Assembly: GCF_025822765.1 (NCBI RefSeq)
Contig: NZ_JACKUK010000025.1
Coordinates: forward strand, 1,084-65,083
Direction: 5' to 3'
Length of the DNA: 64,000 nt
Source of the DNA: Mycobacterium barrassiae
GTDB taxonomy: Bacteria; Actinomycetota; Actinomycetes; Mycobacteriales; Mycobacteriaceae
Position numbers and translations under genes: made by a program. This document shows, piece by piece, positions 20,192 to 36,356 of the stretch (positions are counted from its first letter, which is position 1; every line of letters starts with the position of its first letter). The notes below the pieces were generated by a model, which was not told the origin of the DNA, made no database searches, and worked only from the letters and a program-made list of their open reading frames with translations.

Positions 20192-20265
20192 GGCCAGGTA
20201 GCTCAGTTGGTACGAGCGTCCGCCTGAAAAGCGGAAGGTCGCCGGTTCGATCCCGGCCCTGGCCA
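20192..20265 (+). tRNA. tRNA-Phe (GAA), integration target of the island
   Basis: 74 bases. The acceptor GGCCAGG pairs with CCTGGCC, the anticodon loop CTGAAAA gives GAA and the T arm is GCCGGTTCGATCCCGGC. From base 20227 onward the gene is supplied by the integrated element; the displaced original 3' part remains at 36317-36355. Confidence 0.96.
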
Positions 20266-20266
20266 C
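20227..20266 (+). repeat. attL core (40 bp, in tRNA-Phe)
   Basis: The 40 bases from AAAAGCGGAAGG to CTGGCCAC are identical to 36317-36356. They run from the anticodon loop to one base past the discriminator. A hairpin AGGCGG-TTT-CCGCCT (20272-20286) follows, imitating the host terminator retained after attR. Confidence 0.93.
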
Positions 20267-20309
20267 ATCAGAGGCGGTTTCCGCCTTGACATTGCACTGC
20301 ATCCGACGT

Positions 20310-21497
20310 TTATTCGTCGCTTATGCCGACCGCCCGGTCCAATACATCAGCGACCTCGGTGTGCACTCTGCCCCGCGACATGTAGACGTCTTGCGTCATG
20401 GACGGCCGCGCGTGCCCAAGCTGGTCGGCGCCAATGCGAGCCGATAGCCCCGAGTCGTCAATCAACGTCGCGACGGTCTTGCGGAAGCTGTGTGACGACA
20501 CGTCCGGCAGGCCGAGCGAGTCACGGACCTCCCGCCACTGCTTGCTGAAGTTGTCTGGGTCGCGCAGCGTGCCCGTAGACGACGGGAAGATCACGTCACC
20601 GGTGGAGGTCCGTAGCGGGTCGCCCTTGCGTCGGTGCAGGGCATCGATGGCGAACTGGGGGAGCGCCACGGATCGTTCGTCTCCGCCCTTAGTCCGCTCC
20701 TGACGCACCAGACCCTTGCCCTTGATCCGCACGATCGACCCCGACACCGTCACGACCCGGCGGTCGAGGTCGATGTCCTGCCACCGCAACGCCAACAGCT
20801 CTGAGCGCCGTAATCCGGTTGCCGCCAAGAGGATCACCGGGTCGCGTAGATCCTTCTGCTCGCAGTCCCCCGATGCCTCCACGCCTGACAGCAGATCTCG
20901 CACCTGATCTACGGCGAGAGCTGGTGCGCCCCTCGTCCTCTTCTTCTCAGCCTTCTTCACACGCCTCGAGGCGATCTCGCGCACCGGGTTGGCTCCGATC
21001 GCTCCGGCCATCACCGCGTCGGTCAGCACCGAATTCAACGCGACCTTCGTGTGACGCTCCCGCGTCGCCCCATGGTCGCGGCGGATGCCCTGCAAGATGT
21101 CGTTCAGGAGCCCGGGTTCAGCCTCGCTAACCCGGATCCCCACGAATCGTGCCTTGACCGTGTTGATCGTCGCCTCGTACGTGTCGACACTTTTGGGTGC
21201 CAGATCGCCATCTGCGCGGCACCGTTCGATGTACCGGGACAGCAGATCGCCCAGCAGCGTTGAGCCCGTGATCGTCCCTGTCCCCGGCGGCCGCCTAGCC
21301 GCGATCGCATCGAGAAGAGCACTCTCGGCGCGAGCCCCATACTCATCGGCGACGCCGGCCGGCGTCATGCGTTCAAGTCGGCGGGTCACTCCATCGCGAT
21401 CCCGGAACCGGCACCGTGCCACCCACACACCCGACTCCACTTGAGTGCGGGTGATTTTGCCGTGCTGCCCAATCCGCAGCGGCGGCCTACCCGCCAT
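20310..21497 (-). CDS. int: Tyrosine integrase of the island
   Basis: 395 residues. An N-terminal AP2-like arm-binding domain spans about 1-65, a SAM-like core-binding domain about 80-180, and the catalytic domain from about 205. The catalytic set is Arg in ATGLRRSELLALRW, HxxR in SHSFRKTVATL, a late His in LGHARPSM and the nucleophile Tyr in TQDVYMSRG. It integrates into the adjacent tRNA-Phe, 45 bp away. Its ATG overlaps the stop of the upstream repressor gene (ATGA), so int and repressor share one message. Confidence 0.95.
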   Translation of the reverse strand: MAGRPPLRIGQHGKITRTQVESGVWVARCRFRDRDGVTRRLERMTPAGVADEYGARAESALLDAIAARRPPGTGTITGSTLLGDLLSRYIERCRADGDLAPKSVDTYEATINTVKARFVGIRVSEAEPGLLNDILQGIRRDHGATRERHTKVALNSVLTDAVMAGAIGANPVREIASRRVKKAEKKRTRGAPALAVDQVRDLLSGVEASGDCEQKDLRDPVILLAATGLRRSELLALRWQDIDLDRRVVTVSGSIVRIKGKGLVRQERTKGGDERSVALPQFAIDALHRRKGDPLRTSTGDVIFPSSTGTLRDPDNFSKQWREVRDSLGLPDVSSHSFRKTVATLIDDSGLSARIGADQLGHARPSMTQDVYMSRGRVHTEVADVLDRAVGISDE

Positions 21498-22159
21498 CAG
21501 TCGGGCACTTTCAAGTTATCGACGGAGAAATTCTTACTCTCGCCGGTGAAACGGAGATCCGGAAACCGGGTCGAAAAGAGCACTTGATACGCCGCGTAGT
21601 CGGCGTCTTCAAATTCGTATTCCGGAGGAGAACTTCTGCCCGCGAGCGCTAGGTATTCATCGTGGTCGATGCCGAGTTCATCGTGAAGGTATCTCAGCGC
21701 GCTGTCCTCGCTGAGCAACTCCGTAAAGGTGAGCTCGAGGATCTCCATGAATTGACCCGCAGTGCCGTGAACAACGAATGCTGTATTACCCGAGATGATC
21801 TCGCGCATCAGCAAGAGTGCTTCTAGATCGCTTCGTGCCATCTCAGTTTCTTCTGCGATTAGGCGGAGACCCTGCCTCTTCTCGCGATATCGAATTGACT
21901 GCCGCTGAATCGCATATGACAACGTCCCTGATTCGGGGTTGAGGGCGTCCGCGCTCATCCCAAGCGCGTCAGCCACTGCGAACAGTTCGGTCGCCTTCAA
22001 TGCGCGCTGTCCGCTTTCGATCCGAGACAGCGTGGTGCGTGTCCACGACACCCCTCGCGCCTCAAGCGAAGTCAAGAAATCCTCCTGTCGGAGATCCTTC
22101 TGCTGGCGGGCCTCCGCGATGCGGACGCCGATCGCGCGATCTGAACTCTCCCCAGCCAT
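21497..22159 (-). CDS. XRE-family repressor (immunity-type)
   Basis: 220 residues from ATG at 22159. The HTH at about 8-70 (IAEARQQKDLRQEDFLTSLE, then WTRTTLSRIESGQRALKA) is of Cro/C1 type. The C-terminal half is helical and acidic with no LexA-type peptidase motif, so release from repression by RecA-induced self-cleavage is not expected. It faces the xis-like gene across a 125-bp divergent promoter region with an inverted repeat at 22241-22262. The longer upstream frame crosses that promoter region and is rejected. Confidence 0.85.
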   Translation of the reverse strand: MAGESSDRAIGVRIAEARQQKDLRQEDFLTSLEARGVSWTRTTLSRIESGQRALKATELFAVADALGMSADALNPESGTLSYAIQRQSIRYREKRQGLRLIAEETEMARSDLEALLLMREIISGNTAFVVHGTAGQFMEILELTFTELLSEDSALRYLHDELGIDHDEYLALAGRSSPPEYEFEDADYAAYQVLFSTRFPDLRFTGESKNFSVDNLKVPD

Positions 22160-22240
22160 GCCGAACAGTTTCCCATGTGACGCGCCGATTCCGCACATGA
22201 CACTTGCGGTTCTCGATCGATCGCGTATCATTCTATTAAC

Positions 22241-22262
22241 GCACATCGAATGTGCGATGTGC
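22241..22262. promoter_or_regulatory. Putative operator between repressor and xis-like gene
   Basis: GCACATCG-AATGTG-CGATGTGC is a perfect inverted repeat with 8-bp arms. Adjacent AT-rich boxes could serve both directions: TATCAT/TATTAA rightward and TAGAAT leftward. CATGTG-N14-CACATG nearby (22173-22198) has similar half-sites. This looks like the genetic switch of the element. Confidence 0.6.
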
Positions 22263-22284
22263 AATAGCAGAGAGGTTATATCAG

Positions 22285-22482
22285 ATGCCGACCAGCGAGG
22301 ATTACTGGCTGACTAGACCGGAGGTGGGAGAGCGGCTCAAGGTCCCAGTTAAAACCTTGGCCCAGTGGGCCTGTCAGGGAAAGGGACCCCGTTATCGGAT
22401 CTTCGGACGGCACACTCGCTATCGGCTCAGCGACGTTATTGCTTGGGAGGACGCCCAGGTGAGCGGTGGGACTCCGGCGTGA
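22285..22482 (+). CDS. HTH_17/MerR-like DNA-binding protein (excisionase/Cro-like)
   Basis: 65 residues from ATG at 22285 with GAGAGG upstream. It is a winged HTH of excisionase type: YWLTRPEVGERLKVPVKTLAQW, then the wing GPRYRIFGRHTRYRLSDVIAWED. As the first rightward gene facing the repressor it is in the position of Cro or Xis. It may direct excision with Int or repress the lysogenic promoter. Sequence alone cannot separate these roles. Confidence 0.75.
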   Translation: MPTSEDYWLTRPEVGERLKVPVKTLAQWACQGKGPRYRIFGRHTRYRLSDVIAWEDAQVSGGTPA

Positions 22483-22507
22483 TCCGCCCCCAGTTCAACC
22501 ACGCCAG

Positions 22508-22587: not shown

Positions 22588-22647
22588 ATGACGACGATAC
22601 TCGGTGATGCCGACAGCGTGACGCATATGGGGACGGCGCGTCCATGA
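22588..22647 (+). CDS. Tiny ORF (19 aa) coupled to next gene
   Basis: ATG at 22588 follows AGAGGGACA by a good distance. The frame encodes MTTILGDADSVTHMGTARP and its TGA overlaps the ATG of the next gene (ATGA). It may be a leader that sets translation of the downstream replication-type gene. Conservation would decide whether it is a real peptide. Confidence 0.4.
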   Translation: MTTILGDADSVTHMGTARP

Positions 22648-23213
22648 CTGACGCACGCTTGCCCGAGCGGTGGCTCAACGATCGCCGATTGCAGCGGCTG
22701 TCGGCTGACCACTACCGCACGTTCATCAACGCGTTGTTGTGGTCGGTCGCCAACCGCACAGATGGGCGGATCGAGCGTGACGACGTTGCGCTAATCCCGC
22801 ACTGGTCCGCCAACGCCGCGAAGGCATTCATCGATGCCGGGTTGTTCACGGCACAGGCTGACGGATGGTTGATTGCCGACTACATGTCGACACAGACGTC
22901 GCGCAGTGAGCTGGACATGTTGGAGCGGAACCGACGGCGGGATCGGGAGAAGAAGGCCCGCCAGCGGGCCGCGAAATCAGGCGGACCCAACTCAGAGGAC
23001 CTCGGTGTTGGCGAAAGTGAAACATCCTCTGTCCCTCTGGATGTCCCGGGGGACGGTCCCGGGGAAATGTCCCGGGGGACTGCACAGGCAGGCAGGACAG
23101 GCAGGAAGGCAAGGAAGGCCGAGACTCAGGCGCAGCCGTCGCTTGCGGTGGTGAACGGGAAGGCGTCGGGGTGGCGTGGCGCTGGCCCTGACCCATTTTA
23201 TGAATACCGTTAA
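22644..23213 (+). CDS. Phage replisome-organizer-like protein (hypothetical)
   Basis: 189 residues. The N-terminal 90 residues (RLSADHYRTFINALLWSVANRTDGRI, then HWSANAAKAFIDAGLF) resemble the winged-helix head of phage DnaD/replisome-organizer-type proteins common in actinophages. A strongly basic helix RNRRRDREKKARQRAA and a low-complexity tail follow. No catalytic motif is seen. First full gene of the rightward operon; a role in loading replication proteins is a guess. Confidence 0.5.
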   Translation: MTDARLPERWLNDRRLQRLSADHYRTFINALLWSVANRTDGRIERDDVALIPHWSANAAKAFIDAGLFTAQADGWLIADYMSTQTSRSELDMLERNRRRDREKKARQRAAKSGGPNSEDLGVGESETSSVPLDVPGDGPGEMSRGTAQAGRTGRKARKAETQAQPSLAVVNGKASGWRGAGPDPFYEYR

Positions 23214-23241: not shown

Positions 23242-23994
23242 GTGAGTGAATTGCGGGTAGTGGAGCCAGTCGAGGTGCTGGTGCCATTGGATGAGCAGGC
23301 AGCTAGGAAGTTGGACGGACGTATTCGGCGGTTGGCGAAACAGGCGGGGGATCAGCTGGTTTTGGTGGGCCAGCTGCTCGATGAGGCGAAGGTCGGTCGC
23401 ATTCATGAAGCGTTGGGCTTTCCCAGTTGGACTGCTTACGTGGCTGATTCGTTGGGCGGGACATTGCAGCTGTCGGGTGCTGCGCGTCAGGCGATGGTGG
23501 AGTTGATGGCGGGGGAGGGGATGTCTGTGCGTGCTATCGCGACGGCGACGGGGGTGTCCAAGTCAACTGTTGACCGGGATCTCGCGCAACTGTCCCGCGA
23601 TGGGACAGTTGACGCGGAATCAACTGTCCCGCAACGGGACAGTTCGCCACACCCAGGCGTAGGGATTGGGCTCGACGGCAAGGTTCGACGTAAGCCACGT
23701 CAGGCGCGACGTAGGCGTGAGCAGGAACCTTCGTCAACGCAATCCGCGGCGCGCAAGGTGCCCGTGCAGTCGATGTATCGGCGGACGGTTAAGGCGCTGA
23801 ATCCTGTTGTGTGCGAGCTGGGGAGTCTCGTTGATGATCCGCGGTGGGTAAAGGCGCGAGAACGGTTCACCGAGAAGGACCGAGCCGAAGTTCATGGAAA
23901 TATTGCTGTGCTGCAGAAGGTGCTCGCCGCAATGGACGCGACTGCAGTTGCATCGGTCGACGGCGGCGACTCGACCGCGAAGACAGTGCTCTGA
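23242..23994 (+). CDS. HTH protein of plasmid partition/replication type, with inverted repeats inside the gene
   Basis: 250 residues. Helical N-terminus, then a clear HTH at about 90-115 (MSVRAIATATGVSKSTVDRDL), a basic linker RRKPRQARRRREQ and a helical C-terminus. Similar proteins occur in actinobacterial plasmids and satellites, often of unknown role. GAGAGGAGAA precedes the GTG start. Just after the HTH the DNA carries three palindromes built on CAACTG (23562-23644). It may bind those sites itself. Overlaps the next gene at TGATG. Confidence 0.55.
   Translation: MSELRVVEPVEVLVPLDEQAARKLDGRIRRLAKQAGDQLVLVGQLLDEAKVGRIHEALGFPSWTAYVADSLGGTLQLSGAARQAMVELMAGEGMSVRAIATATGVSKSTVDRDLAQLSRDGTVDAESTVPQRDSSPHPGVGIGLDGKVRRKPRQARRRREQEPSSTQSAARKVPVQSMYRRTVKALNPVVCELGSLVDDPRWVKARERFTEKDRAEVHGNIAVLQKVLAAMDATAVASVDGGDSTAKTVL
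23562..23644. repeat. Three CAACTG-type inverted repeats within coding sequence
   Basis: GTCAAC-T-GTTGAC lies at 23562-23574. CAACTGTCCC-GCGAT-GGGACAGTTG lies at 23587-23611, and CAACTGTCCC-GCAAC-GGGACAGTT at 23621-23644. The last two begin 34 bp apart, so they are read in different frames and encode different peptides. The repeat is therefore kept as DNA or RNA, not as protein. Confidence 0.8.
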
Positions 23995-24272
23995 TGTCCG
24001 TCACGCCCGCCAACGACATCGAGGCCTTCGAACGAGTCATCGCCGCATGGTCGGAACCCGTGGACTGCGAGGCGCATACGAAGCTGGGTGCCCAGTGCCG
24101 ACGTCCAGCGCATTGGCGGCTCGACCTTCACGGCTGCGAGACAGTTCTGTTGTGCCGGCATCATTTGCGCGCTTGGGAGCTGAAGGCACGAAGCACGATG
24201 GCGCCCTGGTGCGCCGTTTGCGGCGGACGCTGGCCTTCGATTAATGACGCCTACTCGGTGACACCGCTGTGA
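23994..24272 (+). CDS. Small zinc-binding protein (hypothetical)
   Basis: 92 residues from the ATG that overlaps the previous stop. Cys/His pairs suggest two zinc sites: DCEAHTKLGAQCRRPAHW with LLCRHH, and WCAVCGGRW. Such ribbons are common in phage DNA-metabolism operons. Its stop overlaps the GTG of the second recombinase (GTGA), so three genes are translated as one unit. Confidence 0.6.
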   Translation: MSVTPANDIEAFERVIAAWSEPVDCEAHTKLGAQCRRPAHWRLDLHGCETVLLCRHHLRAWELKARSTMAPWCAVCGGRWPSINDAYSVTPL

Positions 24273-25135
24273 GCGCCACACTGCGACTGGTGGAGAACAC
24301 CGGGGATCGTGGTGGGGAGTTGCCTCCGATCGATGCCTATGAGGTGTGGATGCGTGGCCGCGGCTTGGCGGTACGCACCATCAGCGACACGGTGCTCACC
24401 CTGCGGCGTCTCCAGAGCGCGAGCGGCTACCCGATCGAGGCCACGCCGACGTTGGCGGTGTCACGGTTCCTGGGTGCGGAGCAGCTCGGTGCTCGAGCCC
24501 GCTATACGTATTTCGGTCACCTGCGCGGGTTCTTCCGGTGGCTGGCCAATGAGGGGATCGGCGCGGACGCGATGGCCACACTGCCCCGCCCCCGGATGCC
24601 GCGCTGTACTCCGCGGCCGATTACTACCGAGCAGCTGCAGGCGCTGCTGGAGTTGCCGCTGCGGCGCAAGACCCGTGCCATGGTGCTGCTCGCCGCACTG
24701 GCTGGGTTGAGGGCGCATGAGATCGCCAAGGTGCGCGGTCAGGACGTCGACCCTGACGCCCGCACGTTGTACGTGATCGGGAAGGGTGGGCACGCCGCGA
24801 CGATTCCGTTGCATCCGCTGCTTGTCGAGGTGGCGCGTGCGATGCCGGCGCGGGGCTGGTGGTTTCCGGCGAACTCGACCCGCCCGGGGGAGCACATCGG
24901 CTCCCGTCATGTCGTTAACACGGTCAGTGACGCCTGCAAGCGGGCCGACATCCCCGGTGGGACGTGTCACCGTCTCAGGCATTGGTACGGCACGAACCTT
25001 GTCGCCAGCGGGGCCGATCTGCGAACTGCGCAGACGCTACTCCGGCACGAAAATCTAGCCAGTACCGCGATCTACACCGAGGTCAGCGACGAGCGCCGCG
25101 TCGACGCAATCGATCGACTCGACCCCTTCGGATGA
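24269..25135 (+). CDS. Second tyrosine recombinase (XerC/D-like)
   Basis: 288 residues. An N-terminal SAM-like core-binding domain spans about 20-100 and the catalytic domain starts at about 110. Full catalytic set: Arg in LAGLRAHEIAKVR, Lys in the beta-hairpin GKGGHAA, HRLRH (His, Arg), His in LLRHENL and nucleophile Tyr in STAIYTEV. It lacks the arm-binding domain of the island integrase and is closer to Xer-type resolvases. Placed last in the replication-like operon, it may resolve multimers of the replicating element. The alternative is a second integrase. Confidence 0.85.
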   Translation: MSATLRLVENTGDRGGELPPIDAYEVWMRGRGLAVRTISDTVLTLRRLQSASGYPIEATPTLAVSRFLGAEQLGARARYTYFGHLRGFFRWLANEGIGADAMATLPRPRMPRCTPRPITTEQLQALLELPLRRKTRAMVLLAALAGLRAHEIAKVRGQDVDPDARTLYVIGKGGHAATIPLHPLLVEVARAMPARGWWFPANSTRPGEHIGSRHVVNTVSDACKRADIPGGTCHRLRHWYGTNLVASGADLRTAQTLLRHENLASTAIYTEVSDERRVDAIDRLDPFG

Positions 25136-25186: not shown

Positions 25187-25414
25187 TCAGGCGTTATCCA
25201 ACCGCTTCAACACTCTGCGGTCCTCGTCGACGATCTGCTCGAGCAAGTCGTCGCGGCGCGCTCGGCGTCCGTCCTGTGCCTGCCTCCGCCGAATATCCTG
25301 GCACCGGCAGTCGTTGACGTGACCGCGTTCCGGCAGGTCGAGCGCATGGCACGCACCCTTGTTGTCGTCGTGTTCGTTGACAGGGCACCCGCACTCCGCG
25401 CAGTAGTCGGCCAC
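25187..25414 (-). CDS. Small Cys-rich protein (hypothetical)
   Basis: 75 residues from GTG. Cys residues in YCAECGCPVNEHDDNKGACHA and NDCRCQD suggest a zinc knuckle, followed by a charged helical tail DDLLEQIVDEDRRVLKRL. Convergent to the second recombinase. An overlapping alternative frame (25194-25421) has no such pattern. Function unknown. Confidence 0.5.
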   Translation of the reverse strand: MADYCAECGCPVNEHDDNKGACHALDLPERGHVNDCRCQDIRRRQAQDGRRARRDDLLEQIVDEDRRVLKRLDNA

Positions 25415-25476: not shown

Positions 25477-25791
25477 TTACATGAGTTCGCCGGCGCCGCC
25501 TGTGATTACATCGGTCCCGAGGATCATGAAGTGCACAACGACGTCGTCGTCTGGGTCGAACACCCGGCCGGGCGTTCCATCCTCGAACTCGACAGTCCAC
25601 TGGTTCCGGTCGCCGAAGTGATCAGTGACGGTCGAGACTTTTCGGGCGAAGTGAGCCGGCACGCCGTCCAACCCGTCCTGCGGTACGTTGTCGTCGACAA
25701 ACAGCGGCCAGTACCGCTGTTGGTACTCCGCCAGGCCCGAGGCCTTAACGGTTTGGGTCATGATGACGGTGCAGCTGGGGTCTGGTTGCAT
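25477..25791 (-). CDS. Hypothetical protein of the island
   Basis: About 104 residues; starts at 25809, 25791 or 25761 are all possible and none has a good ribosome-binding site. The sequence is soluble and acidic (EYQQRYWPLFVDDNVPQDGLD, EFEDGTPGRVFDPDDDV) with no family recognised. It lies between the Cys-rich protein and the divergent HEPN gene. Confidence 0.45.
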   Translation of the reverse strand: MQPDPSCTVIMTQTVKASGLAEYQQRYWPLFVDDNVPQDGLDGVPAHFARKVSTVTDHFGDRNQWTVEFEDGTPGRVFDPDDDVVVHFMILGTDVITGGAGELM

Positions 25792-25912
25792 GGATGGAAC
25801 GGTAGACACAGACCCGACTGAGCGGGGGAGTCAATCCTCAATGCGTTGGATTCGGCAGGCTTTGAGGTTGACTCGGCCCCTATGTCCGCACCCGTGTCTT
25901 AGCGTTGGTTCC

Positions 25913-26701
25913 GTGACAGATGAGCCCTCGGAGACCGCTACTGATGGCCGCCCTCCCGAACAAATAATCGATATCGACCAGATTCCGACTTCCTCCGCGC
26001 ACGCATTCACCCCACTAAAAGGGGTGCGTCAGTACTTCGCGGCACAACACCTTTGGGCCGCACGCCTGATGGCACACCTATGTCGCGAGCGGGAGGAGCA
26101 GCTGCTCGCGGAGGTCGCGCACGGTGCCAAACGGAGAGTCGACAAACACCTGCAATCGCTCGCGTTGGGGGCCGTCATGGAATCCGTCGCAATGCTGGAA
26201 GCCGTGGTGAACGAAATCTGGCAAGACGCCGCCGAGACGGAACCAATCGTGGCTTCCGAGCGGCTGCAGGGGTTAAGTTCCGACGCGAGAGCGCTGATGC
26301 GGGACCTCCGAACACAAAGGGTCGAGCGATCACTCAAGCTGATGGAAAAGTATGCGGTGCTTCTGACGTGCGCAGGTAAGCCGCCGCTAGACAGGTCCCG
26401 TAGGCCATATTCGGATGTCAAGGCGCTAATCAAACTGCGCAACGCATTGGTGCACTTCACACCAGAAACGCAGTGGGACAACCAGGTCCATGATCTGGAG
26501 GCTGAAATGAAGTACCTGGTCCCCGAGAATCCGCTACTTCACGGTTCACGCCCGTGGTTTCCCCAGCAGCCCCTATGCGCTGGCGGCGCCCGCTGGGCTT
26601 GGGAGTCCAGTATGAAATTCGCAGATGACTGGCACACGCAGATGGGGCTTGAGCGCAGTTACCGCTACGGTGTGATTGATTGGCCCGACGGCCTGAATTA
26701 A
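25913..26701 (+). CDS. HEPN-motif protein, candidate RNase/defence gene
   Basis: 262 residues from GTG at 25913. Mostly helical, with the RN-x3-H motif of HEPN RNases at the end of a helix (LIKLRNALVHFTPETQ, about residue 183), preceded by the expected long helical bundle (EEQLLAEVAHGAKRRVD, ALGAVMESVAMLEAVVNEIW). HEPN proteins with this motif cut RNA in toxin-antitoxin and abortive-infection systems. It is a single gene without an obvious partner and has its own promoter position. A role in blocking competing phages is inference from motif and location. Confidence 0.6.
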   Translation: MTDEPSETATDGRPPEQIIDIDQIPTSSAHAFTPLKGVRQYFAAQHLWAARLMAHLCREREEQLLAEVAHGAKRRVDKHLQSLALGAVMESVAMLEAVVNEIWQDAAETEPIVASERLQGLSSDARALMRDLRTQRVERSLKLMEKYAVLLTCAGKPPLDRSRRPYSDVKALIKLRNALVHFTPETQWDNQVHDLEAEMKYLVPENPLLHGSRPWFPQQPLCAGGARWAWESSMKFADDWHTQMGLERSYRYGVIDWPDGLN

Positions 26702-28833: not shown

Positions 28834-29633
28834 CACGGGCCCTCATCAGGTGGTACAACCTCGGCGGCGCCGATCAGCGCTTCGTATCCGATCACCAGCG
28901 ACCGCTCCGCGATCACGTGAAACCGGTTGTGCTCCAGCTTCTCCGCCGGATGCAGGTGAACTTCGCCGCGCCAGCCAAACGGCTGCGACGTCGCCACTAA
29001 CGTGTCACCCAGCGTTTCGGGATACCCACCCCCGAAAACCCAAGTGTGACCAGATGGCGTCTTGAAACCCGCGCCCGTACGCACCAGCAGATTCGCCTGC
29101 GCTGCAACAGACATCCACGAGGGACGTCCATGAATGAATCCGAGGGTGTTCGTCGCCGCCAGCATCTCATCCAGTGCACCGACCGCAGCGACAAGGTCGA
29201 CCACCTCGGTTGGCGTGTCAACATCATCAAGCAGCCGGGCCGCGAACTCCGCCTCCACCGCGACAGGCTCACGCAAACGGTGGATCTGGGCCGCACGGGT
29301 ACGAATCTCATCCCTCGACGGCGCCGTGAGGTCACATTCGTCGGCCGCCCACGTCGTGATCGCCGCGAACACCGGCAATGCGGCCGGACGGTCAGCAGCC
29401 CGCTTCACGTCCGCCTCGGGGACCAGGTCCTCCTCCGAGACGTTCCAGGCAGCCGCCCACACACCAAAGCTGCCGTCCACGCCGTAGTTCCAGGGTTTGA
29501 TTTCGACACCGTCCGGCAACCACCGCTCGGCGTCGCCAGCCGTCGGCTGCCACTGCGTCACCGCGAACAACCCGGCAGCCGACGGATTCACCAGCGGCGC
29601 GTCAAACGGCACCGGCGCCAACACACTCGTCAT
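28833..29633 (-). CDS. Major capsid-like protein
   Basis: 266 residues with GAGAGGATG before the ATG. The body (VFAAITTWAADECDL, FAARLLDDV, GFIHGRPSWMSVAAQANLL) and the C-terminal segment (TWVFGGGY, DTLVATSQPFGWRGEV, ERSLVIGYEALIGA) match the shape of capsid proteins in actinobacterial phages and encapsulin-like phage heads (A-domain and spine). It sits where phiRv1/phiRv2 keep their capsid genes, downstream of the small terminase. The HK97 fold is assumed, not shown. A smaller head for a 16-kb genome is plausible. Confidence 0.55.
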   Translation of the reverse strand: MTSVLAPVPFDAPLVNPSAAGLFAVTQWQPTAGDAERWLPDGVEIKPWNYGVDGSFGVWAAAWNVSEEDLVPEADVKRAADRPAALPVFAAITTWAADECDLTAPSRDEIRTRAAQIHRLREPVAVEAEFAARLLDDVDTPTEVVDLVAAVGALDEMLAATNTLGFIHGRPSWMSVAAQANLLVRTGAGFKTPSGHTWVFGGGYPETLGDTLVATSQPFGWRGEVHLHPAEKLEHNRFHVIAERSLVIGYEALIGAAEVVPPDEGP

Positions 29634-29711: not shown

Positions 29712-30545
29712 TCACAGCCGCAGCCTCCGCATATCGGCAGCCACGCGCAGCCGCTCCCGGTCCTGCGCCACCGACTCCGCCAGCACCCGTCCCGCTAACG
29801 CCTGCTGACGCCGATTCCGCAGCTCCGGCAGCCGGTTTCGCAACATCGCGACCCTTTGATCGAAACCGACGGGGATTTGACTCGACAACGCCTCGGAGAG
29901 AGCCACATCAAGCTCAGACACCCGCCCCGCCGGTTGCGCCGCCACCACCACCGCTAAATCCGCGCTCAACGGCTCCACCACCGCCACAAGGCGATCCACC
30001 CACGCGCCGGAATACAAGTCCGCCTCGTCGACCTCCGGAATCGCCGCATGGCCCGGATCGGCCACCACCGCAGACAACCGGTCACGCGCACCGTCCGGTA
30101 ACACCGACAGTGGCTGCTTCGCGATCAGCTCCACCAAAGCGGCCCGAAGATCCCGCACCGACCGCGCGACCTCACGGACGTCACGCAGCGGCTCCAACTC
30201 CAGAGGTGCCGCACCCTCAGCGAACAATCTGCCCACCCCGCGCCGGTCCGCCAACCGCACACCGTCCGCCAACAAGCCCTGGATCTCAACCGCCAACGGC
30301 CGAAGCTGCCCCGAAACCTCCTGACGCAGATCGAAGTCCGTGAAGTGAACTAGCCACCCCTGGCCCCGCTGCTCCCGCGCCGCAGCCTGGTCGAAATCCA
30401 CCCGCCTCGGCACCGACCGCACCGACGAACCCCGCCCACGACGACTCGACGCCGACGACAACGGCGCATCCGACGTCAACAACGAACGACGCCGCACCAC
30501 CCGCTCAGAATCGACCGGCGACGCGACATCCCACCCGCCACTCAC
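29712..30545 (-). CDS. Helical protein upstream of capsid gene (scaffold-like, hypothetical)
   Basis: 277 residues from the GTG that overlaps the previous stop (GTGA). A disordered basic N-terminus (about 1-55) is followed by long amphipathic helices rich in Leu/Arg/Glu (RLADRRGVGRLFAEG, RSVRDLRAALVELIA, MLRNRLPELRNRRQQALAG). Position between terminase-side genes and capsid and the helical composition suggest a scaffold or head-morphogenesis role. No family recognised. Confidence 0.55.
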   Translation of the reverse strand: MSGGWDVASPVDSERVVRRRSLLTSDAPLSSASSRRGRGSSVRSVPRRVDFDQAAAREQRGQGWLVHFTDFDLRQEVSGQLRPLAVEIQGLLADGVRLADRRGVGRLFAEGAAPLELEPLRDVREVARSVRDLRAALVELIAKQPLSVLPDGARDRLSAVVADPGHAAIPEVDEADLYSGAWVDRLVAVVEPLSADLAVVVAAQPAGRVSELDVALSEALSSQIPVGFDQRVAMLRNRLPELRNRRQQALAGRVLAESVAQDRERLRVAADMRRLRL

Positions 30546-30769
30546 CGCACCAGCCCCAAAAGCTGCGCACACAGCGCATCAACACCCGCAGGAGACAAAC
30601 GGGCAGCCTCAGCAGCAATCACCCGCCGCACACGCCAATACGCAATCCCCGCCACACAATCACGCACCCGCTCGTCATCCTCACCCACACCCCGAGCACG
30701 CCACGAACCGTACTCAGCACGCCACGACGTAGCCGTCCGCGAACCCGGATCAACACTCACCATCACCAT
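30542..30769 (-). CDS. Small hypothetical protein, first gene of the capsid operon
   Basis: 75 residues from ATG at 30769 (start choice uncertain among clustered ATG/GTG codons). Charged helical protein (YGSWRARGVGEDDERVRDC, VRRVIAAEAARLSPAGVDAL). Coupled to the next gene by GTGA overlap. Function unknown. Confidence 0.5.
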   Translation of the reverse strand: MVMVSVDPGSRTATSWRAEYGSWRARGVGEDDERVRDCVAGIAYWRVRRVIAAEAARLSPAGVDALCAQLLGLVR

Positions 30770-30982
30770 GGCGCAGACCGTACGCACGTACCGTGCACAC
30801 ACCCCTCCACGTCAACCAACAACGCAACTGAAATGCGAAAATCACGAAAAAAATCGCAGAAATTTGTTCGACCGCTCCGCTGCGCTCAGCGGGCACCCCC
30901 CTCAGGTAAACCTCCCCGGCATTTCTGACGGCGACACCCAGGGTGTCGCCGGGGTGGACATCCCTACCGCTGAAGGGACGTC
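30770..30982 (-). promoter_or_regulatory. Promoter/terminator region ahead of capsid operon
   Basis: 213 bp without a gene. Nearest the upstream gene is a strong hairpin CGGCGACACC-CAG-GGTGTCGCCG (30929-30951). Then comes an AT-rich stretch (ATCACGAAAAAAATCGCAGA at 30841-30860) that is unusual in this GC-rich element and suits a late promoter for the leftward capsid genes. Read leftward it contains CGTGATTTTCG, close to the iteron motif at 32166-32377. Confidence 0.5.
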
Positions 30983-31207
30983 CTACTCGGTGTCGCGCGC
31001 TTCTCGCTCGATCACCTGCTCACGCAATGCCACTAGCTCTTCAGCTGACACCTGCCCGGACGCGAGCACCTGCCGCGCGATCGACATCGCCAGCGGCCAT
31101 AACGGATCATCCCGACCCGTCAGGTTTAAGAGTCGTTGCCGGTATTCAGCGAACTTCCGTGTGAACGCCTCTGCCTCAGCGACTAGGGAATCCGGGTCAT
31201 CGTTCAC
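30983..31207 (-). CDS. Small hypothetical protein, paralogue of next upstream gene
   Basis: 74 residues from the GTG that overlaps the upstream gene. The core DDPLWPLAMSIARQVLASGQVSAEEL matches GDPVWPVQVSIVRDVLAVGGAVSADEL of its neighbour, so the two arose by tandem duplication. All helical, acidic. No known family. Confidence 0.55.
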   Translation of the reverse strand: MNDDPDSLVAEAEAFTRKFAEYRQRLLNLTGRDDPLWPLAMSIARQVLASGQVSAEELVALREQVIEREARDTE

Positions 31208-31607
31208 CGTCGTCCTCCTCGCCGGCATCCAACGCAAGCGCCTGCTCAATCCACGAACGACCCGTGGAGCTCGGCTCTTCACGAGACCGCTCAACCGCGG
31301 CCCACTCCGCGAGTTCATCAGCGGAGACAGCACCGCCCACTGCCAGGACATCACGGACGATGCTGACCTGCACCGGCCATACCGGATCACCCGGGCCGAT
31401 GACGGTGCCGACCGCCTCCCGGCACGCTTGCACCGCCGCAGCCTCGAGCTGCTCAGGATCAAGCTGCCCTGACGTGATGTCCTGCGCTACCGACATCGCG
31501 CTCGCAACCGCGGATCGCCTCGCGGCCGCCCGCCTATCGTGCCTGTTCAATTCGGTTCCTTTACTTCTCATTCCATCAACTCCTGACCTATCTACGCGTA
31601 GGTTCAC
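31197..31607 (-). CDS. Hypothetical protein downstream of small terminase (tandem paralogue)
   Basis: 136 residues from GTG at 31607, chosen because it overlaps the terminase stop (GTGA); an internal ATG at 31571 is the alternative. A basic N-terminus (ELNRHDRRAAARR) is followed by a helical domain shared with the next gene. Possibly a terminase- or head-associated accessory protein, by position only. Confidence 0.55.
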   Translation of the reverse strand: MNLRVDRSGVDGMRSKGTELNRHDRRAAARRSAVASAMSVAQDITSGQLDPEQLEAAAVQACREAVGTVIGPGDPVWPVQVSIVRDVLAVGGAVSADELAEWAAVERSREEPSSTGRSWIEQALALDAGEEDDGER

Positions 31608-32059
31608 TGCTCGATTTCGGGTATCTCCACCACCTCCGCATCCAGGACCGCCATCAGCTCACGTTCAGCGTCAGCAAGGATTTCCGCCGGGGATCGGAAG
31701 TGCGTCACCTGGACCTCAACCTGCTTCGGCGCATGCAAACCATCGAGGTTGGCCAGCTCGCGTGTGGTCAGCCGGATCTCACGGCTTGTCGCTGTAATCG
31801 CCTGCACGTCACCGCGTTGCGTCGCAAGCGCCAACTCCTCGTGTAACCGCTGCTGAGTGAGACGCAGCCCCTCAGCCAGTGAGCGACGTGCGAATTCCGG
31901 AGTCTCACGTATCCGGTCGTAATGGCGTGTCACAGCGATATGAGCCGCCTGTCGACTCCTATACGCCAGATGGTCCGCGATCGCTTGCCAGCTGTACCCA
32001 CGGGCCCGAAGGCCGGCAGCCTGTTCGGCGCGAGCCCGCGCTTCCCTCAACGACGTCAC
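31604..32059 (-). CDS. Small terminase subunit-like protein
   Basis: 151 residues from GTG. The N-terminal HTH (AAGLRARGYSWQAIADHLAYRSRQAAHIAV) is typical of actinophage TerS DNA-recognition domains. Long oligomerisation helices follow (SLAEGLRLTQQRLHEELALATQRGD), then a C-terminal Pro/Glu tail. TerS selects the DNA to be packaged and hands it to the large subunit, which this element lacks. It could redirect a helper's TerL to island DNA, with the recognition site probably in the adjacent repeats. Confidence 0.7.
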   Translation of the reverse strand: MTSLREARARAEQAAGLRARGYSWQAIADHLAYRSRQAAHIAVTRHYDRIRETPEFARRSLAEGLRLTQQRLHEELALATQRGDVQAITATSREIRLTTRELANLDGLHAPKQVEVQVTHFRSPAEILADAERELMAVLDAEVVEIPEIEQ

Positions 32060-32161: not shown

Positions 32162-32165
32162 AAAC

Positions 32166-32377
32166 GTGATTGGTGGACGTGTGATTGGCGTGATTGCTTT
32201 CGTGATTGCCTGGCCTGCGGCGGTCTTGCGCGCGTGATTGCTTGTGACCGTATGTGATTGGCTTGTCGTGGGAAAAGTGCGTGATTGCCCCTGGCCTGCG
32301 GTTATCGGTCAAATCGTGATTGGGCGTGATTGCTCTTGGCGGCTGGCGCGTAGGGGTTATTCCGGCTCCCGTGATTG
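32166..32377. repeat. Iteron array: ten direct GTGATTG repeats (putative origin)
   Basis: Exact GTGATTG occurs at 32166, 32181, 32190, 32202, 32234, 32254, 32281, 32316, 32326 and 32371, all in the same orientation. A longer unit containing CTGGCCTGCGG follows copies 4 and 7 (32210-32220 and 32291-32301). The last copy lies inside the 3' end of the RepA-like helicase gene. Directly repeated short boxes beside a replication gene are typical of iteron origins; binding by TerS as a packaging site is the alternative. Confidence 0.8.
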
Positions 32378-33427
32378 CTTCTCAGCGAGGAACCATGCTG
32401 CTGGAGTGCGGTTGTCTCCGCCGCCGCGGCCGCCTTCGACGCGTACCAACCTGGCGTTGCTGTCGAGCTTGCGGCGGGCCTTCTCGATGTCAGCGCGTGA
32501 CGGGTTGGACTTGTCGGTGATCGCCTGTGCGAGGCCGCGTGCGGTTAACCCGTCTGCTCCGGATGCGCGTACTAGCTCGATCGGATCGACGGCGTGCTCG
32601 ACCGTCAGTACACCGGCGGCCGGGTCGTGAAGGAGCCGCCATGGACCCACCTCGTCGGCAGGCTGTTTGAGGTGGGTGAATCTGATGATGGGGTCGCCGG
32701 GGTTGCCGTTGAGGAGAATGACCGACCCGCAGCCGGAGGTGAGCCATGTCGAGCCGTAGACGTCGTCGATGGACAGATGTGCGTCCTTCTGCTTGTGGTC
32801 GCGCTTCTTGGTGTGGTGGAGATCGATAAGTTGGCGGCCGGATGCGAGAAGGTGTTGTCTGGCGCGGTTGTATGCCGCGCCGACTTCGTCGTTGGATAGG
32901 CCGAGGGCTGCGTCCTTGACGGAGTCGACGATCACGATGTCGGCGTCGAGATCGTGTGCCATGGCGGCGAGCATGTCGGGGCGGGCAGCGAGGTCGGTGG
33001 GCGGCGGCCCAGGTCGGATGAAGAGTTTGTCGTCGAGTGCGGCTCGGTCGTTCTCTGTGAATTGGCGGCCAAGGGATCGGGCGATCTGGCGCGGTCGGTC
33101 CATTGCGAGGTAAAGGACACGGTCGGCGGCGACCTGTACCGGTTGGCTGAGAACTTCAGCGTCGCCGCGGCCTAGGAGGGCGCGGACTAGCTGACCGACC
33201 AAGGTGGTTTTCCCGACGCCCTGGGGGCCGGCGATCATCAGGGATTCACCTTCGGCCCAGAGAACTTCGTTGCCTTGACCCCAGATGGCTGGGATGTGGT
33301 CGGGTTCGTCGAGGATGAACGCGCCTCCGCCGACGATTCCCCACTGATCTCTTGGGCTCGGCTCGATGACGTTAGGAGGATCGTGGACGGCTGGCGCGGC
33401 GTCGAAGTTGAGGTCGTGAATTGTCAT
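32357..33427 (-). CDS. RepA-like AAA/RecA-fold helicase
   Basis: 356 residues from ATG at 33427, chosen for GAGGGA eight bases upstream; an upstream start would overlap DUF2742. Walker A is GPQGVGKTT (about residue 66), Walker B is DADIVIVDSVKD, and LIDLHHTKK matches the sensor strand of RSF1010 RepA/AAA_25-type ring helicases. The C-terminal part looks like a winged helix (LTARGLAQAITDKSNPSRAD). It should unwind the island origin. The iteron array begins inside its 3' end. Confidence 0.8.
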   Translation of the reverse strand: MTIHDLNFDAAPAVHDPPNVIEPSPRDQWGIVGGGAFILDEPDHIPAIWGQGNEVLWAEGESLMIAGPQGVGKTTLVGQLVRALLGRGDAEVLSQPVQVAADRVLYLAMDRPRQIARSLGRQFTENDRAALDDKLFIRPGPPPTDLAARPDMLAAMAHDLDADIVIVDSVKDAALGLSNDEVGAAYNRARQHLLASGRQLIDLHHTKKRDHKQKDAHLSIDDVYGSTWLTSGCGSVILLNGNPGDPIIRFTHLKQPADEVGPWRLLHDPAAGVLTVEHAVDPIELVRASGADGLTARGLAQAITDKSNPSRADIEKARRKLDSNARLVRVEGGRGGGDNRTPAAWFLAEKQSREPE

Positions 33428-33474
33428 CGGATCCCTCGTGTAGCGGGGTTGGTGAGAGATGGCTTGCTGGGGCG

Positions 33475-33825
33475 TCAGTTGCTTGGAGCTCGGACCGCCC
33501 ACGGCCGTGATGCGCGGAAGTGGGCTCGGTGTTGAACGTCGCGGCTGACTGCCCGCCAGTCGGGGGCGGCCGCGACAGCTCGGCTCGCGTCAGCGCGCGC
33601 GGCCTGCGCGGTCTCGATGCGCAGCGCGTGGTGTTGGGCGCCGTCGAGAATCGCAGCCCACCGGCGTGGGTCGTCGTGGGCTAGTGAGCACCAGGCGGGG
33701 GTGCCGAGCATCGGCCAGTCGTTGACTTGTTTGAGGACTGCGTCGACGAATTCGTGCACCGACCACCAGCTGACTTGCTGGGCGCCCGGATTGTCCGGTG
33801 CTGACGGCGGCAGTCCGGTAGTCAT
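33475..33825 (-). CDS. DUF2742 protein (phiRv1/phiRv2 hallmark)
   Basis: 116 residues. The conserved pattern VSWWSVHEFVDAVLKQVNDW, WPMLGTPAWCSLAHDDPRRW and ALRIETAQAARADASRAV defines DUF2742, found in the M. tuberculosis prophage-like elements phiRv1 and phiRv2 beside their helicase/primase. Function unknown, probably replication-linked. Its start overlaps the stop of the excisionase-like gene (ATGA). Confidence 0.85.
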   Translation of the reverse strand: MTTGLPPSAPDNPGAQQVSWWSVHEFVDAVLKQVNDWPMLGTPAWCSLAHDDPRRWAAILDGAQHHALRIETAQAARADASRAVAAAPDWRAVSRDVQHRAHFRASRPWAVRAPSN

Positions 33826-34160
33826 TCGCGGTGGCTCACGTCGCCGATGTGATCGTTAGCCGGCGCAGGACTATCTGGCGGGGCTAGGCCTTGCCCAGAA
33901 AGAGGGATCTGCAGTTCCTTGGACGCGGCCTCGTCGCGTTGACGATTGGCGCGCGCGCCGCTGGGGACATACGGGATCAGCATGGCGTCGATGTCGCTCG
34001 CCTTGATCCGGACGGGCGCGTTCCTTGATCGGCCTACCTTGACGGCGGGAAGCTTCCCTTGCCGTAGCCAATCGCGGATCGTCCACGCCGAGACGCCGCA
34101 CTGGTCCGCGGCCTCAGCAACGGTAAATAGGTATTTCGGTGCAGTTGGGGTGCTCCGCAT
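33822..34160 (-). CDS. Excisionase-like HTH protein at head of leftward operon
   Basis: 112 residues. HTH_17 domain at about 10-60 (LFTVAEAADQCGVSAWTIRDW, LPAVKVGRSRNAPVRIKASDID), then a Pro-rich tail. In phiRv1/phiRv2 the equivalent gene is annotated as a possible excisionase. Being first in the operon with helicase and terminase, it could equally be the operon's activator. Confidence 0.75.
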   Translation of the reverse strand: MRSTPTAPKYLFTVAEAADQCGVSAWTIRDWLRQGKLPAVKVGRSRNAPVRIKASDIDAMLIPYVPSGARANRQRDEAASKELQIPLSGQGLAPPDSPAPANDHIGDVSHRE

Positions 34161-34627: not shown

Positions 34628-34637
34628 GGTGAATGAC

Positions 34638-34979
34638 ATGAGCACGACCTACTGGGTCGAGATGAGCTTGCTGGTATCCGGCTCACCCGACGCCGACTTG
34701 GTGGCGTTCGTGGAGGAGCTCGCGTCCGTCTTGGACAAAGATCACGACGGCGAAGTGATGTACACGTTTGCCAGCAAGACCGGTCATCTCACGTTGGCGC
34801 TGTCAACGGTCAGCGACGCCGACACGATGCAGGTGTGCGGCCACGTCGCCACCACCGTGCGGTCGGCAGCTCACGGGATGGGCGCGCACACGCCGGGATG
34901 GCCGCAAGCACCGGTCACCCTTTCGGACTTCACTGGCTTCAGCATCAAATCGTTGGACCGCGAAACCGTTCCCTGCTGA
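34638..34979 (+). CDS. Partner of HicA-like gene (possible antitoxin)
   Basis: 113 residues from ATG at 34638 with GAGGTGA five bases upstream; a GTG at 34629 is possible. Alpha/beta composition (YWVEMSLLVSGSPDADLVAF, VMYTFASKTGHLTLALSTVS) suggests a ferredoxin-like fold. No DNA-binding motif is seen. Probably co-expressed with the preceding HicA-like gene. Confidence 0.5.
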   Translation: MSTTYWVEMSLLVSGSPDADLVAFVEELASVLDKDHDGEVMYTFASKTGHLTLALSTVSDADTMQVCGHVATTVRSAAHGMGAHTPGWPQAPVTLSDFTGFSIKSLDRETVPC

Positions 34980-34980
34980 G

Positions 34981-35030
34981 TTGACGTTGGTTGACGTTGG
35001 TTGACGTTGGTTGGCGTTGGTTGACGTTGG
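34981..35030. repeat. Five tandem 10-bp repeats TTGACGTTGG
   Basis: TTGACGTTGG is repeated five times head to tail (one base differs in copy 4: TTGGCGTTGG), starting two bases after the stop of the TA-like pair. A 10-bp period places every copy on the same face of the helix. It could be a protein-binding array or a slippage-prone minisatellite. Confidence 0.85.
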
Positions 35031-35087
35031 TAGGCATTAGCCCTAGACTTGCTCTCGTAGCCATCCCATTGCGGTGGGATCGGAAGT

Positions 35088-35128
35088 GAGCCACAGGATA
35101 ACTCGCCGGACGACGAGGCCTGTGGCTC
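35088..35128. terminator. Hairpin between TA-like pair and DUF3800-like gene
   Basis: GAGCCACAGG (35088-35097) pairs perfectly with CCTGTGGCTC (35119-35128). It lies just beyond the stop of the leftward DUF3800-like gene and also downstream of the rightward pair, so it may serve both. A second small stem ATCCCA/TGGGAT lies at 35063-35080. Confidence 0.6.
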
Positions 35129-35135
35129 GCGGCTT

Positions 35136-35696
35136 TCAGGGGCTAATGGTGTGGATTTCCACGGTTGACCCGAGAATGTCCAGGTAGGCGGGGTTCCCCA
35201 CGCGCGACTGGACAACTGCACCGCACACGATGTCCGATGCCCACAGGGCAGGCTCGACGCGGCCTACGGCGTGATCGATCCGCAGGGTCGGGGTGATGGC
35301 ACGGCCGGACCGCAGAAGTTGCAGAGTGTGCAGGTCGCTGGCGTCGAGCGTGTGGCGCGACTCAAATGTGATGGTTGAGCAGGGCATTTCCGCGAGATGG
35401 GGCAGCAGAAACTCGAGGCATTTGCGGCGGTGCCGCTTGTCGCTGGCATCCTGCTCGACGTGGACGACGACGAACCCGGCGACGGGCAGCTGGGCGACGG
35501 TTTGGACCAGCTCGTGGCGGCGCTCGTCGCTGCTGCCGTGCCAGTGCAGCTTCTTCTCGCCGATCATCCGCAGCGCTTCCATCATTTTGCGCAGCTCGGG
35601 TACGTCGTCCTCGTCGCAGAGGGTGGCGCCGAGCATGTAGGCGCCCGGGTCAAGTTTGGGGATCGAGCCGCTCTCGTCACCCCATGCTGTCATCAC
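35136..35696 (-). CDS. DUF3800-like RNase H-fold protein
   Basis: 186 residues. It opens with AWGDESGSIP and a strand MLGATLCDEDDV, has a central His-rich helix KKLHWHGSSDERRHELV and a strand GFVVVHVEQD, and ends LRIDHAVGRVEPALWASDIVCGAV. The DESG start and terminal AxxDxxxGA match DUF3800 proteins, putative RNase H-like nucleases that travel on mobile elements. Catalytic acids appear present (Asp in DESG, Asp in ASDIV). Biological role unknown. Confidence 0.55.
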   Translation of the reverse strand: MMTAWGDESGSIPKLDPGAYMLGATLCDEDDVPELRKMMEALRMIGEKKLHWHGSSDERRHELVQTVAQLPVAGFVVVHVEQDASDKRHRRKCLEFLLPHLAEMPCSTITFESRHTLDASDLHTLQLLRSGRAITPTLRIDHAVGRVEPALWASDIVCGAVVQSRVGNPAYLDILGSTVEIHTISP

Positions 35697-35707
35697 GTGC
35701 GAGAACC

Positions 35708-36010
35708 CTAATCAGCTGGGTCAACAAGGTCTGTACGGGCACCCCGCCCGGGCCGGTTGATGTTCCACTCGTCGATCGTCGACGCGAGCCAGCCGCGCAG
35801 CGTTCCCCGCGGCAGAGTGCCGTCCGAGTTGATCGGCCCGATCACCGCATCCGCCGGCGGCAGCCTGTAGCGGCTCAACGTGTTCGGCTCGACACCGATC
35901 CGCTGCGCGAACTCGGCGACGTTAAAGTACCGGGTCGGCTGGTGTCGGGCCGGCTCATTCTTCTTCGCCAGGTCGGCGTAGTACTCCGCCATGCCTTTGT
36001 AGAGCTTCAT
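35708..36010 (-). CDS. Small HTH regulator at right end of island
   Basis: 100 residues from ATG at 36010. An HTH lies near 30-55 (YFNVAEFAQRIGVEPNTLSRYRLPPADAVIG) with a following basic segment. First gene of a pair with the DUF3800-like protein. A perfect inverted repeat two bases upstream of the start is a likely operator. The open frame continues far upstream across attR and is not coding there. Confidence 0.65.
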   Translation of the reverse strand: MKLYKGMAEYYADLAKKNEPARHQPTRYFNVAEFAQRIGVEPNTLSRYRLPPADAVIGPINSDGTLPRGTLRGWLASTIDEWNINRPGRGARTDLVDPAD

Positions 36011-36011
36011 C

Positions 36012-36041
36012 GGGTGGCTCAATCTCTCGTCTGAGCCACCC
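36012..36041. promoter_or_regulatory. Inverted repeat in the leader of the HTH regulator
   Basis: GGGTGGCTCA (36012-36021) and TGAGCCACCC (36032-36041) are perfect 10-bp arms with a 10-bp spacer, directly before the ATG at 36010. Either a self-regulatory operator or an RNA hairpin blocking translation. Confidence 0.6.
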
Positions 36042-36316
36042 ACAATACAGGATGTCCGTGTAATGTAACTACAGGTTTGAACTGTAAGGTTTGTGAGGCG
36101 CTTCAATAGCGTGGTTGGGCCCGCCAGCAGCGGCCTGCGTCCTGCCACGACAGCGGGTGACGGACTTCGCCCCATTTTCCAGTTGACGCATATTCGTCTG
36201 AAATGCCCGCGACACACCGAGAATCGTCGGCACCCAGCGAGCAAACTGTGAAGGGGATCGTGCAGGTAGAAAGGCACTTTCGGCAATCGTTGCGGCGCGT
36301 CAAGAATCGTCAACCT
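36042..36316. other. Right-end non-coding arm of the island
   Basis: No gene seen. GAATCGTC occurs at 36221-36228 and 36304-36311, and AATCGT again at 36285-36290; such repeats beside a core site could be integrase arm-binding sites. ACAG-GTTTGAA-CTGT (36071-36085) is a further small inverted repeat. Confidence 0.45.
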
Positions 36317-36356
36317 AAAAGCGGAAGGTCGCCGGTTCGATCCCGGCCCTGGCCAC
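36317..36356 (+). repeat. attR core (40 bp, displaced tRNA-Phe 3' end)
   Basis: Identical to 20227-20266. It is followed by AAGGCGG-TTT-CCGCCG, the host's own tRNA terminator hairpin left behind on insertion. Without the anticodon 5' half it is not a tRNA gene. Confidence 0.93.

Follow-up and report, generated by a model that had tools for sequence, protein, structure and literature searches.

What is an integrated element that encodes a capsid-protein homologue and lacks the genes of a complete virion? This question is raised by a 16.1-kb element of Mycobacterium barrassiae (20227-36356), located between two perfect 40-bp repeats of the 3' end of a tRNA-Phe gene. It lies in a stretch of 64,000 nucleotides (the window); the genome comprises 49 contigs and 5.9 Mb. 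The element is real, satellite-like and bounded by tRNA-Phe, and a satellite is its best reading. More precisely, with a probability of roughly 0.58, it is an integrated satellite belonging to a mycobacterial family whose members hijack phages with two capsid proteins, a hexamer and a pentamer (Bclasvirinae and related prophages). The satellite would contribute its own vertices and scaffold.

The right part of the element is a leftward operon. It encodes, in order, an excisionase (xis)-like protein, DUF2742, an AAA_25 helicase, a small-terminase-like protein (TerS), p136, p86, a scaffold-like protein (SCAF), a pentamer-protein homologue (PENT), a metalloprotease-like protein (the HExxH protein) and a minor-tail domain. 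Below, numbers with G denote genomes and numbers with L denote loci.

Virion and packaging genes

Twenty-three proteins of the element were scanned, 20 against Pfam and PHROGs and three more against Pfam. None matched a large terminase (TerL), portal or tape-measure family, in agreement with a preliminary description of this DNA. The longest coding open reading frames (ORFs) have 395 and 381 amino acids. The same description found no lysis gene, and we saw no separate one. The protein that it called tail-like has a minor-tail-protein C-terminal domain (27253-27933, minus strand; phrog_553, 6.5e-40), with matches in 738 phage records. Among its weaker matches is one 'minor tail protein with lysin activity'. 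The element is integrated, with its own integrase and attachment repeats as in phage satellites in general, and it lacks complete-virion genes: hexamer, portal, TerL and tape measure were not recognised in it.

The claim that a packaging motor is absent applies to the window copy and its closest kin. However, 25 of 33 related satellite loci carry a TerL homologue. TerS (31604-32059, minus strand) has a helix-turn-helix (HTH)-like N-terminus and a conserved core. Its reading as a small terminase is favored by this N-terminus, by conservation and by gene order, since TerS, p136 and TerL follow each other within about 1.1 kb in four loci (L050, L051, L053, L054). On the other hand, it matched no TerS family, and its PHROG is named 'Rnase E'. 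The conserved p136 (31197-31607, minus strand; phrog_27872), beside TerS, is a family present in relatives. The small conserved p86 (30542-30802, minus strand), upstream of SCAF, is a family of the satellites.

A pentamer gene without a hexamer gene

PENT (28833-29633, minus strand) falls in a family of unknown function (phrog_779, 3.8e-86). It shares 54% identity over 257 amino acids with gp16 of phage Arbiter, whose gene immediately follows that of gp15, the 'major capsid hexamer protein'. PENT has matches in 501 phage records. All are below 60% identity, and 500 cover at least 80% of the protein. The best ones are Rosebush-like phages, where the protein is mostly named 'major capsid pentamer protein'. 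The AlphaFold model (pLDDT 93) presents a 34-residue helix, then a mixed region and long C-terminal strands. This predicted arrangement would suit a shell protein of the HK97 type.

The element was previously said to carry its own capsid-type module. This module is not whole, because the pentamer gene is present without a hexamer gene. The capsid-like protein itself is a homologue of the Bclasvirinae pentamer protein. It has no Pfam match and is not a shell protein of the φRv1 type. Therefore, the element is probably unable to build a head alone. It encodes a capsid-protein homologue without the complete capsid set, in the manner of SaPIbov5. According to the main text of the study on Rosebush (PMC7150772), the head has T=9 and gp15 is its capsid protein. 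That main text does not name gp16, so that a place of gp16 at the vertices is putative.

We used a hexamer from a G182 prophage as a query. It detected genes in G182 and G222, and only the N-terminus of the HExxH protein in the source genome (G000) and in G039. It found nothing in G120 and G018. The HExxH protein (27885-28682, minus strand) has a hexamer-protein N-terminal domain at residues 3-62, followed by the motif HEAGH. Hexamer residues 2-61 align to these residues (hhalign 95%, E 3.5e-8). The amino acids H95, E96 and H99 are invariant in 31 aligned HExxH sequences. Reading this alignment by eye, we find the hexamer-like N-terminus in the proteins of the window and of G039, and in no other. 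The earlier name of metalloprotease fits the HExxH domain, but the Peptidase_M50B match (23 bits) is below the family cut-off of 26, and the hexamer domain is fused to it.

SCAF (29712-30572, minus strand) is a satellite-specific protein according to the family searches. Its AlphaFold model (pLDDT 82) is almost all helix, with residues 1-60 unordered. A tblastn search at E<=1 found no match in 50,697 phage records. The family has 62 matches, all of them in satellite loci and none in phage loci; in one of the former, L073, SCAF has a tape-measure gene as a neighbour. Likewise, the SCAF and HExxH profiles gave nothing in eight phage-type loci. Against the Protein Data Bank (PDB), both SCAF and TerS returned only designed helical or apparently unrelated proteins. 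We also considered SCAF as a hidden hexamer. This was rejected, as the protein is predicted helical and has no phage match.

Since PENT and the tail domain are phage genes, the element could be a decayed prophage, a cluster-B-like remnant that lost most of its head and tail genes. The tape-measure gene next to the HExxH gene in L073 would agree with this. Nevertheless, the SCAF and HExxH families were not found in phages. Compared with the G039 copy, dN/dS values were well below 1: 0.10 for PENT, 0.26 for the HExxH protein and 0.43 for SCAF, with a range of 0.10-0.43 over eight genes. These values mean that the genes of the element are under constraint. Moreover, 32 of 297 genomes have this partial set in this order, at different sites, and PENT was repeatedly exchanged while TerL stayed stable (see below). 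A remnant free of selection and recurrence is not what we observe, and this origin seems quite improbable.

The satellite family in the genus and beyond

Within the genus, PENT matches were found in 42 of 297 genomes, a sample drawn by the tool. A hexamer-less PENT is present in 32 genomes, the source genome included (about one in nine). PENT stands beside a hexamer gene in nine: seven in stretches of about 20 kb with portal and tail genes, and two in 3.8-kb stretches. One genome (G195, PENT match E 6e-4) is in neither class.

The relatives comprise 33 hexamer-less loci from 31 other genomes, in stretches of up to 20 kb. Among the tblastn matches listed for these loci, there was none to the Arbiter portal, MuF or tape measure, and none to the hexamer except for the N-terminal domain in L032. 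Family profiles recovered p86 in all 33, SCAF in 32, the HExxH protein in 31, TerS in 31 (doubtful in L042 and L062), p136 in 30 and TerL in 25. The two loci missed by the HExxH profile (L039, L040) end at contig ends. L085 and L098 also have HExxH homologues, with the other core genes missing.

The order TerS-p136-p86-SCAF-PENT-HExxH is met in the window and in relatives, and p86-SCAF-PENT-HExxH is kept as a block, in most relatives with TerL. In nearly all loci, PENT is immediately preceded by SCAF; the exceptions are the rearranged L059, L084 and L097. In L060 and L064, SCAF and PENT form one ORF. The preliminary description had proposed searching for its gene order at tRNA-Phe in related genomes. 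The core is indeed kept, at many tRNA sites and not just at tRNA-Phe. Beyond the genus, Rhodococcus L074 belongs to the family (TerL and p136 were not found in it), as does Williamsia L084, from a record flagged as possibly contaminated. In L084 (7945-9992) and its viral-contig twin L097 (7815-9862), PENT is located upstream of SCAF and its orientation is opposite to that of SCAF and the HExxH gene, which would be consistent with a recent replacement.

Sixteen elements, our own included, are bounded by a repeat of a tRNA 3' end (Phe, Tyr, Leu, Arg, Asn, Val or Ala). Twelve of them measure 14.6-17.2 kb, one 20.3 kb, and three only 5.1, 8.3 and 8.7 kb. The remaining loci had no tRNA repeat in the stretches searched, whose flanks were extended for some only. 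In the 20.3-kb element (L064, in G152), PENT is present twice and a p86-PENT segment is repeated. G152 also contains a second satellite, located at another tRNA-Arg (L049).

We looked for a hidden capsid, portal or tape measure in two relatives. No portal or shell match appeared in the 17 ORFs scanned, which are not every ORF of these loci (10 of L049 against PHROGs, seven of L048 against Pfam; six of the 17 without any match). These ORFs gave integrase, primase or AAA helicase, TerS-like, resolvase, TerL, methyltransferase, Mrr and OGG matches. The TerL of both loci matches large-terminase families. The remaining relatives were checked by tblastn against Arbiter and window genes only. Mrr restriction endonuclease and DNA methyltransferase genes lie after TerL (L048:13525-14562, L049:13316-14455). 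They are possible anti-phage genes.

This cargo of two relatives would also suit an interference element. In such a case, SCAF, PENT and the HExxH protein would mainly poison the assembly of incoming phages, as a defence island rarely or never packaged. Three shortened relatives without TerL keep the PENT-HExxH block (G045, 8.7 kb; G199, 5.1 kb; G133, 8.3 kb). SCAF and PENT are in one ORF in G199, and SCAF was not detected in G133. The capture of PENT from phages is what a decoy might need as well. Conversely, the TerS-like protein and TerL are conserved across the loci, integration and replication genes are present in the relatives scanned, and sizes cluster at 14.6-17.2 kb. For these reasons, interference as the main role seems unlikely.

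Another TerL-less locus is L073 of Mycolicibacterium canariasense (10532-13425), whose tape-measure gene comes directly after the HExxH gene, towards the contig end. The idea that this gene is shortened was discarded as unsupported, because its frame runs past the BLAST match towards the contig end. Together, this gene and the minor-tail domain of the window give hints that the TerL-less sublineage has tail genes in the place of TerL.

Exchange of PENT and stability of TerL

We compared trees of PENT and TerL, counting changes between satellite and phage labels. Labels follow gene content, and L073 counts as a satellite despite its tape-measure match. The trees were quick IQ-TREE searches. We collapsed rows that were identical over the last 200 residues for PENT, or the last 250 for TerL. 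The minimum length was 220 amino acids for PENT rows and 330 for TerL rows, and only the last 290 residues of long PENT rows were kept.

The PENT tree of 117 rows (45 satellite, 72 phage) shows 17 label changes, and branches with strong support force at least nine of them. In this tree, the PENT of the satellite L047 groups with that of Arbiter, a relative of Rosebush (SH-aLRT 88). For the 73 loci that have both genes (36 satellite, 37 phage), PENT has 12 changes (at least seven forced and well supported) against two for TerL. The window copy, without TerL, is outside this second comparison. Without six long-branch rows, PENT still has 10 label changes, and the hypothesis that satellite PENT forms one clade is rejected by the approximately unbiased (AU) test on the remaining rows (lnL difference 238, p 3.4e-10). 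PENT genes have moved between phages and satellites many times, and TerL hardly. A stable TerL beside a PENT that changes sides is the expected pattern if a vertex protein needs to fit the hexamers of the current helper.

Proposed mechanism and its weak points

Under the satellite reading, helper infection or induction would lead to excision through the integrase and the xis-like protein, followed by replication through RepA. SCAF, PENT and the HExxH protein would then enter the procapsid assembly of the helper. With satellite pentamers at the vertices among stolen helper hexamers, a smaller shell might result. The protease could be carried into the procapsid by its hexamer-like N-terminal domain, where it may cleave the scaffold or capsid N-termini. 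TerS would direct the TerL of the helper, or their own TerL in most relatives, to satellite DNA. The vertex gene would have to match the helper hexamers, and for this reason PENT would be exchanged and TerL not.

The sizes can be compared with this scheme. We scaled the 67-kb T=9 head of the Rosebush type by a rule of our own, multiplying genome length by (T ratio)^1.5. The estimate is about 13 kb for T=3 and about 20 kb for T=4, and the latter would suit the elements of 14.6-17.2 kb.

Several observations weigh against the satellite reading. The element is known from its genes alone, and its excision, particle and helper are inferred. Queries with the hexamer and TerL revealed no hexamer-type helper prophage in its own genome; the TerL query had no positive control, and other capsid types were not sought. 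None of eight whole satellite-type viral contigs has an exact terminal repeat (of 15 viral loci, five are not whole contigs and two are phage-type), so that these contigs gave no sign of a circular or packaged form. Without a TerL of its own, the window copy must depend on a borrowed one. The name 'pentamer' is a GenBank annotation, and the vertex position of PENT is putative. Profile comparison gave no relation between PENT and the hexamer, and a PDB search found no match for PENT among solved structures. The label changes of PENT carry no direction of transfer. Finally, the shortened forms of 5.1, 8.3 and 8.7 kb mean decay of some copies.

A more general proposal is the 'vertex swap'. Widespread actinobacterial satellites would carry their own packaging genes and scaffold, and recruit the pentamer gene repeatedly from the phage that they parasitise. 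One sublineage would smuggle a protease on a hexamer N-terminal domain. We advance this only tentatively. If it is true, the phylogeny of PENT could be read as a record of past helpers.

Integration site, early genes and accessory genes

The tRNA-Phe (gaa) gene detected by ARAGORN (20192-20266, plus strand) is the attachment gene and is intact at the left end. Its 3' end is the first repeat copy, attL (20227-20266, plus strand). The second copy, attR (36317-36356, plus strand), is 100% identical, which confirms the duplication reported before. Adjoining attL is a tyrosine integrase of 395 amino acids (20310-21497, minus strand; PF00589, 1.5e-23; phrog_1, 2.3e-52). An HTH repressor-like regulator of uncertain start follows (21497-22264, minus strand; PF01381).

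At the same tRNA-Phe, G039 has an integrase of 85% identity, other cargo of about 7.6 kb (L201) and its own 40-bp repeat. Its copy of the block from the second recombinase (rec2) to TerS is elsewhere, between ychF and a gene with serine-integrase domains. Integration and cargo modules therefore seem exchangeable. No empty attB was found in 118 genomes. The right flank joins a tRNA-Phe copy only in the source genome and G039, where the site is occupied by the different island.

The rightward genes begin with an HTH_17 excisionase/activator-like protein (22252-22482, plus strand), a replication-initiation-like protein (22644-23213, plus strand; phrog_2447, 3.5e-12) and a weakly ParB-like HTH DNA-binding protein (23242-23994, plus strand), the first and third assigned by Pfam/PHROGs searches. 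Within the ParB-like gene, two palindrome-like repeats of 24 nt, 92% identical and with starts 34 nt apart (23587-23644), are possible binding sites. Next comes rec2 (24269-25135, plus strand; PF00589, 2.5e-23; 91% identical in G039), in agreement with the recombinase already described for this operon. A rec2-like match in L196 is no separate gene; it is the same gene as one in L032, since the fetched stretches overlap.

Two claims about the accessory genes found no support. The toxin-antitoxin-like pair (25187-25414, 25477-25809) has no Pfam or PADLOC match and, at best, weak PHROGs of unknown function. The supposed HEPN protein (25688-26701, plus strand; 90% identical in G039) has no Pfam, PHROGs or PADLOC match. 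Its R-x4-H motif, of a kind typical of HEPN, was read by eye alone. Its true start is probably near 25857, where the homology with G039 begins.

The early genes of the leftward operon are as described before. They are a RepA/AAA_25 replicative helicase (32357-33502, minus strand; PF13481, 1.8e-14; phrog_6012, 9.6e-108), DUF2742 (33475-33825, minus strand; PF10888, 4e-34) and an HTH_17 excisionase-like protein from the Pfam/PHROGs searches (33822-34160, minus strand). The repeat search also found iteron-like 10-bp tandem repeats at about 34970-35038 (plus strand), the iterons of the earlier account.

DUF2742, the AAA helicase and the xis-like genes are presumably shared with φRv1 and φRv2. The element might then be a capsid-forming satellite of that type, with a complete small head of its own. 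DUF2742 is present in 40 of 148 genus genomes. Ten ORFs from four other DUF2742 loci, of 12 fetched, were scanned, and three of the four have a PF05065 capsid. Among the matches listed, tblastn found no PENT, SCAF, HExxH or window TerS in the 12 loci. The PF05065 HK97-type capsid that marks capsid-forming phage-inducible chromosomal islands (cfPICIs) and φRv1-type elements is absent here, PENT and SCAF having no Pfam family, and SCAF is predicted helical, hence no hidden shell protein. Such a self-sufficient head is thus very improbable. The likeness to φRv1 and φRv2 seems to be limited to the early genes. The window element combines an early module of the DUF2742-locus kind with a pentamer-type late module.

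Comparison with known systems

The closest parallel for the proposed satellite is SaPIbov5. In the parts of the literature consulted, its Ccm is homologous to the capsid protein of the helper and takes the pentamer positions in T=4 procapsids, the hexamers coming from the helper (PMC8569155; PMC10945586). Ccm cannot build shells alone, and the authors suspect a role of N-terminal delta domains in size control (PMC8569155). By analogy, the hexamer N-terminus on our protease may point to the same part of the assembly path. SaPIbov5 serves as the precedent for the proposed mechanism. The hosts and genes differ, and the likeness to Ccm is one of description. Here, the captured gene is a dedicated pentamer gene of a two-protein capsid, accompanied by a satellite-only SCAF, a metalloprotease with a hexamer N-terminus and, in relatives, usually TerL.

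Other satellites redirect capsid size with a scaffold, as P4 Sid, SaPI CpmB and PLE TcaP do, and SCAF may be analogous to these. Compared by description, they act without a satellite pentamer gene, as far as the consulted part of PMC10945586 goes. The cfPICIs resemble the family in having capsid-related and packaging genes. Nevertheless, they are described there as encoding their own capsid parts and stealing only tails (PMC10945586), and the window element has neither hexamer gene nor portal. Candidate mycobacterial PICIs, with φRv1 and φRv2 termed 'PICI-like', have an integrase often at a tRNA, a DNA helicase and virion genes. In the part consulted, they are defined by a major capsid protein (PMC10654092), in contrast to our element without PF05065. 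The words 'pentamer' and 'hexamer' are absent from the main text of that paper.

Bclasvirinae phages such as Rosebush and Arbiter represent the type of source for both PENT and the hexamer N-terminal domain, and the TerL of the relatives is homologous to theirs. Unlike the window satellite, they are complete phages. Our search of titles and abstract beginnings, with subscription journals mostly outside it, found no paper on pentamer-only actinobacterial satellites. Among PMC papers from 2019 onwards that deal with phage satellites, pentamers and capsids, none is on mycobacteria by its title.

In the literature covered, pentamer replacement to shrink the helper head belongs only to the SaPIbov5 subfamily of staphylococcal SaPIs. 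If the reading proposed here is true, mycobacteria, with 32 of 297 genomes of the sample, would present a case that appears to be independent, and its record of gene exchange would predict the helper phages. Two questions become testable, namely which phages mobilise poorly understood mycobacterial phage-like islands and what sets the capsid size of two-protein heads.

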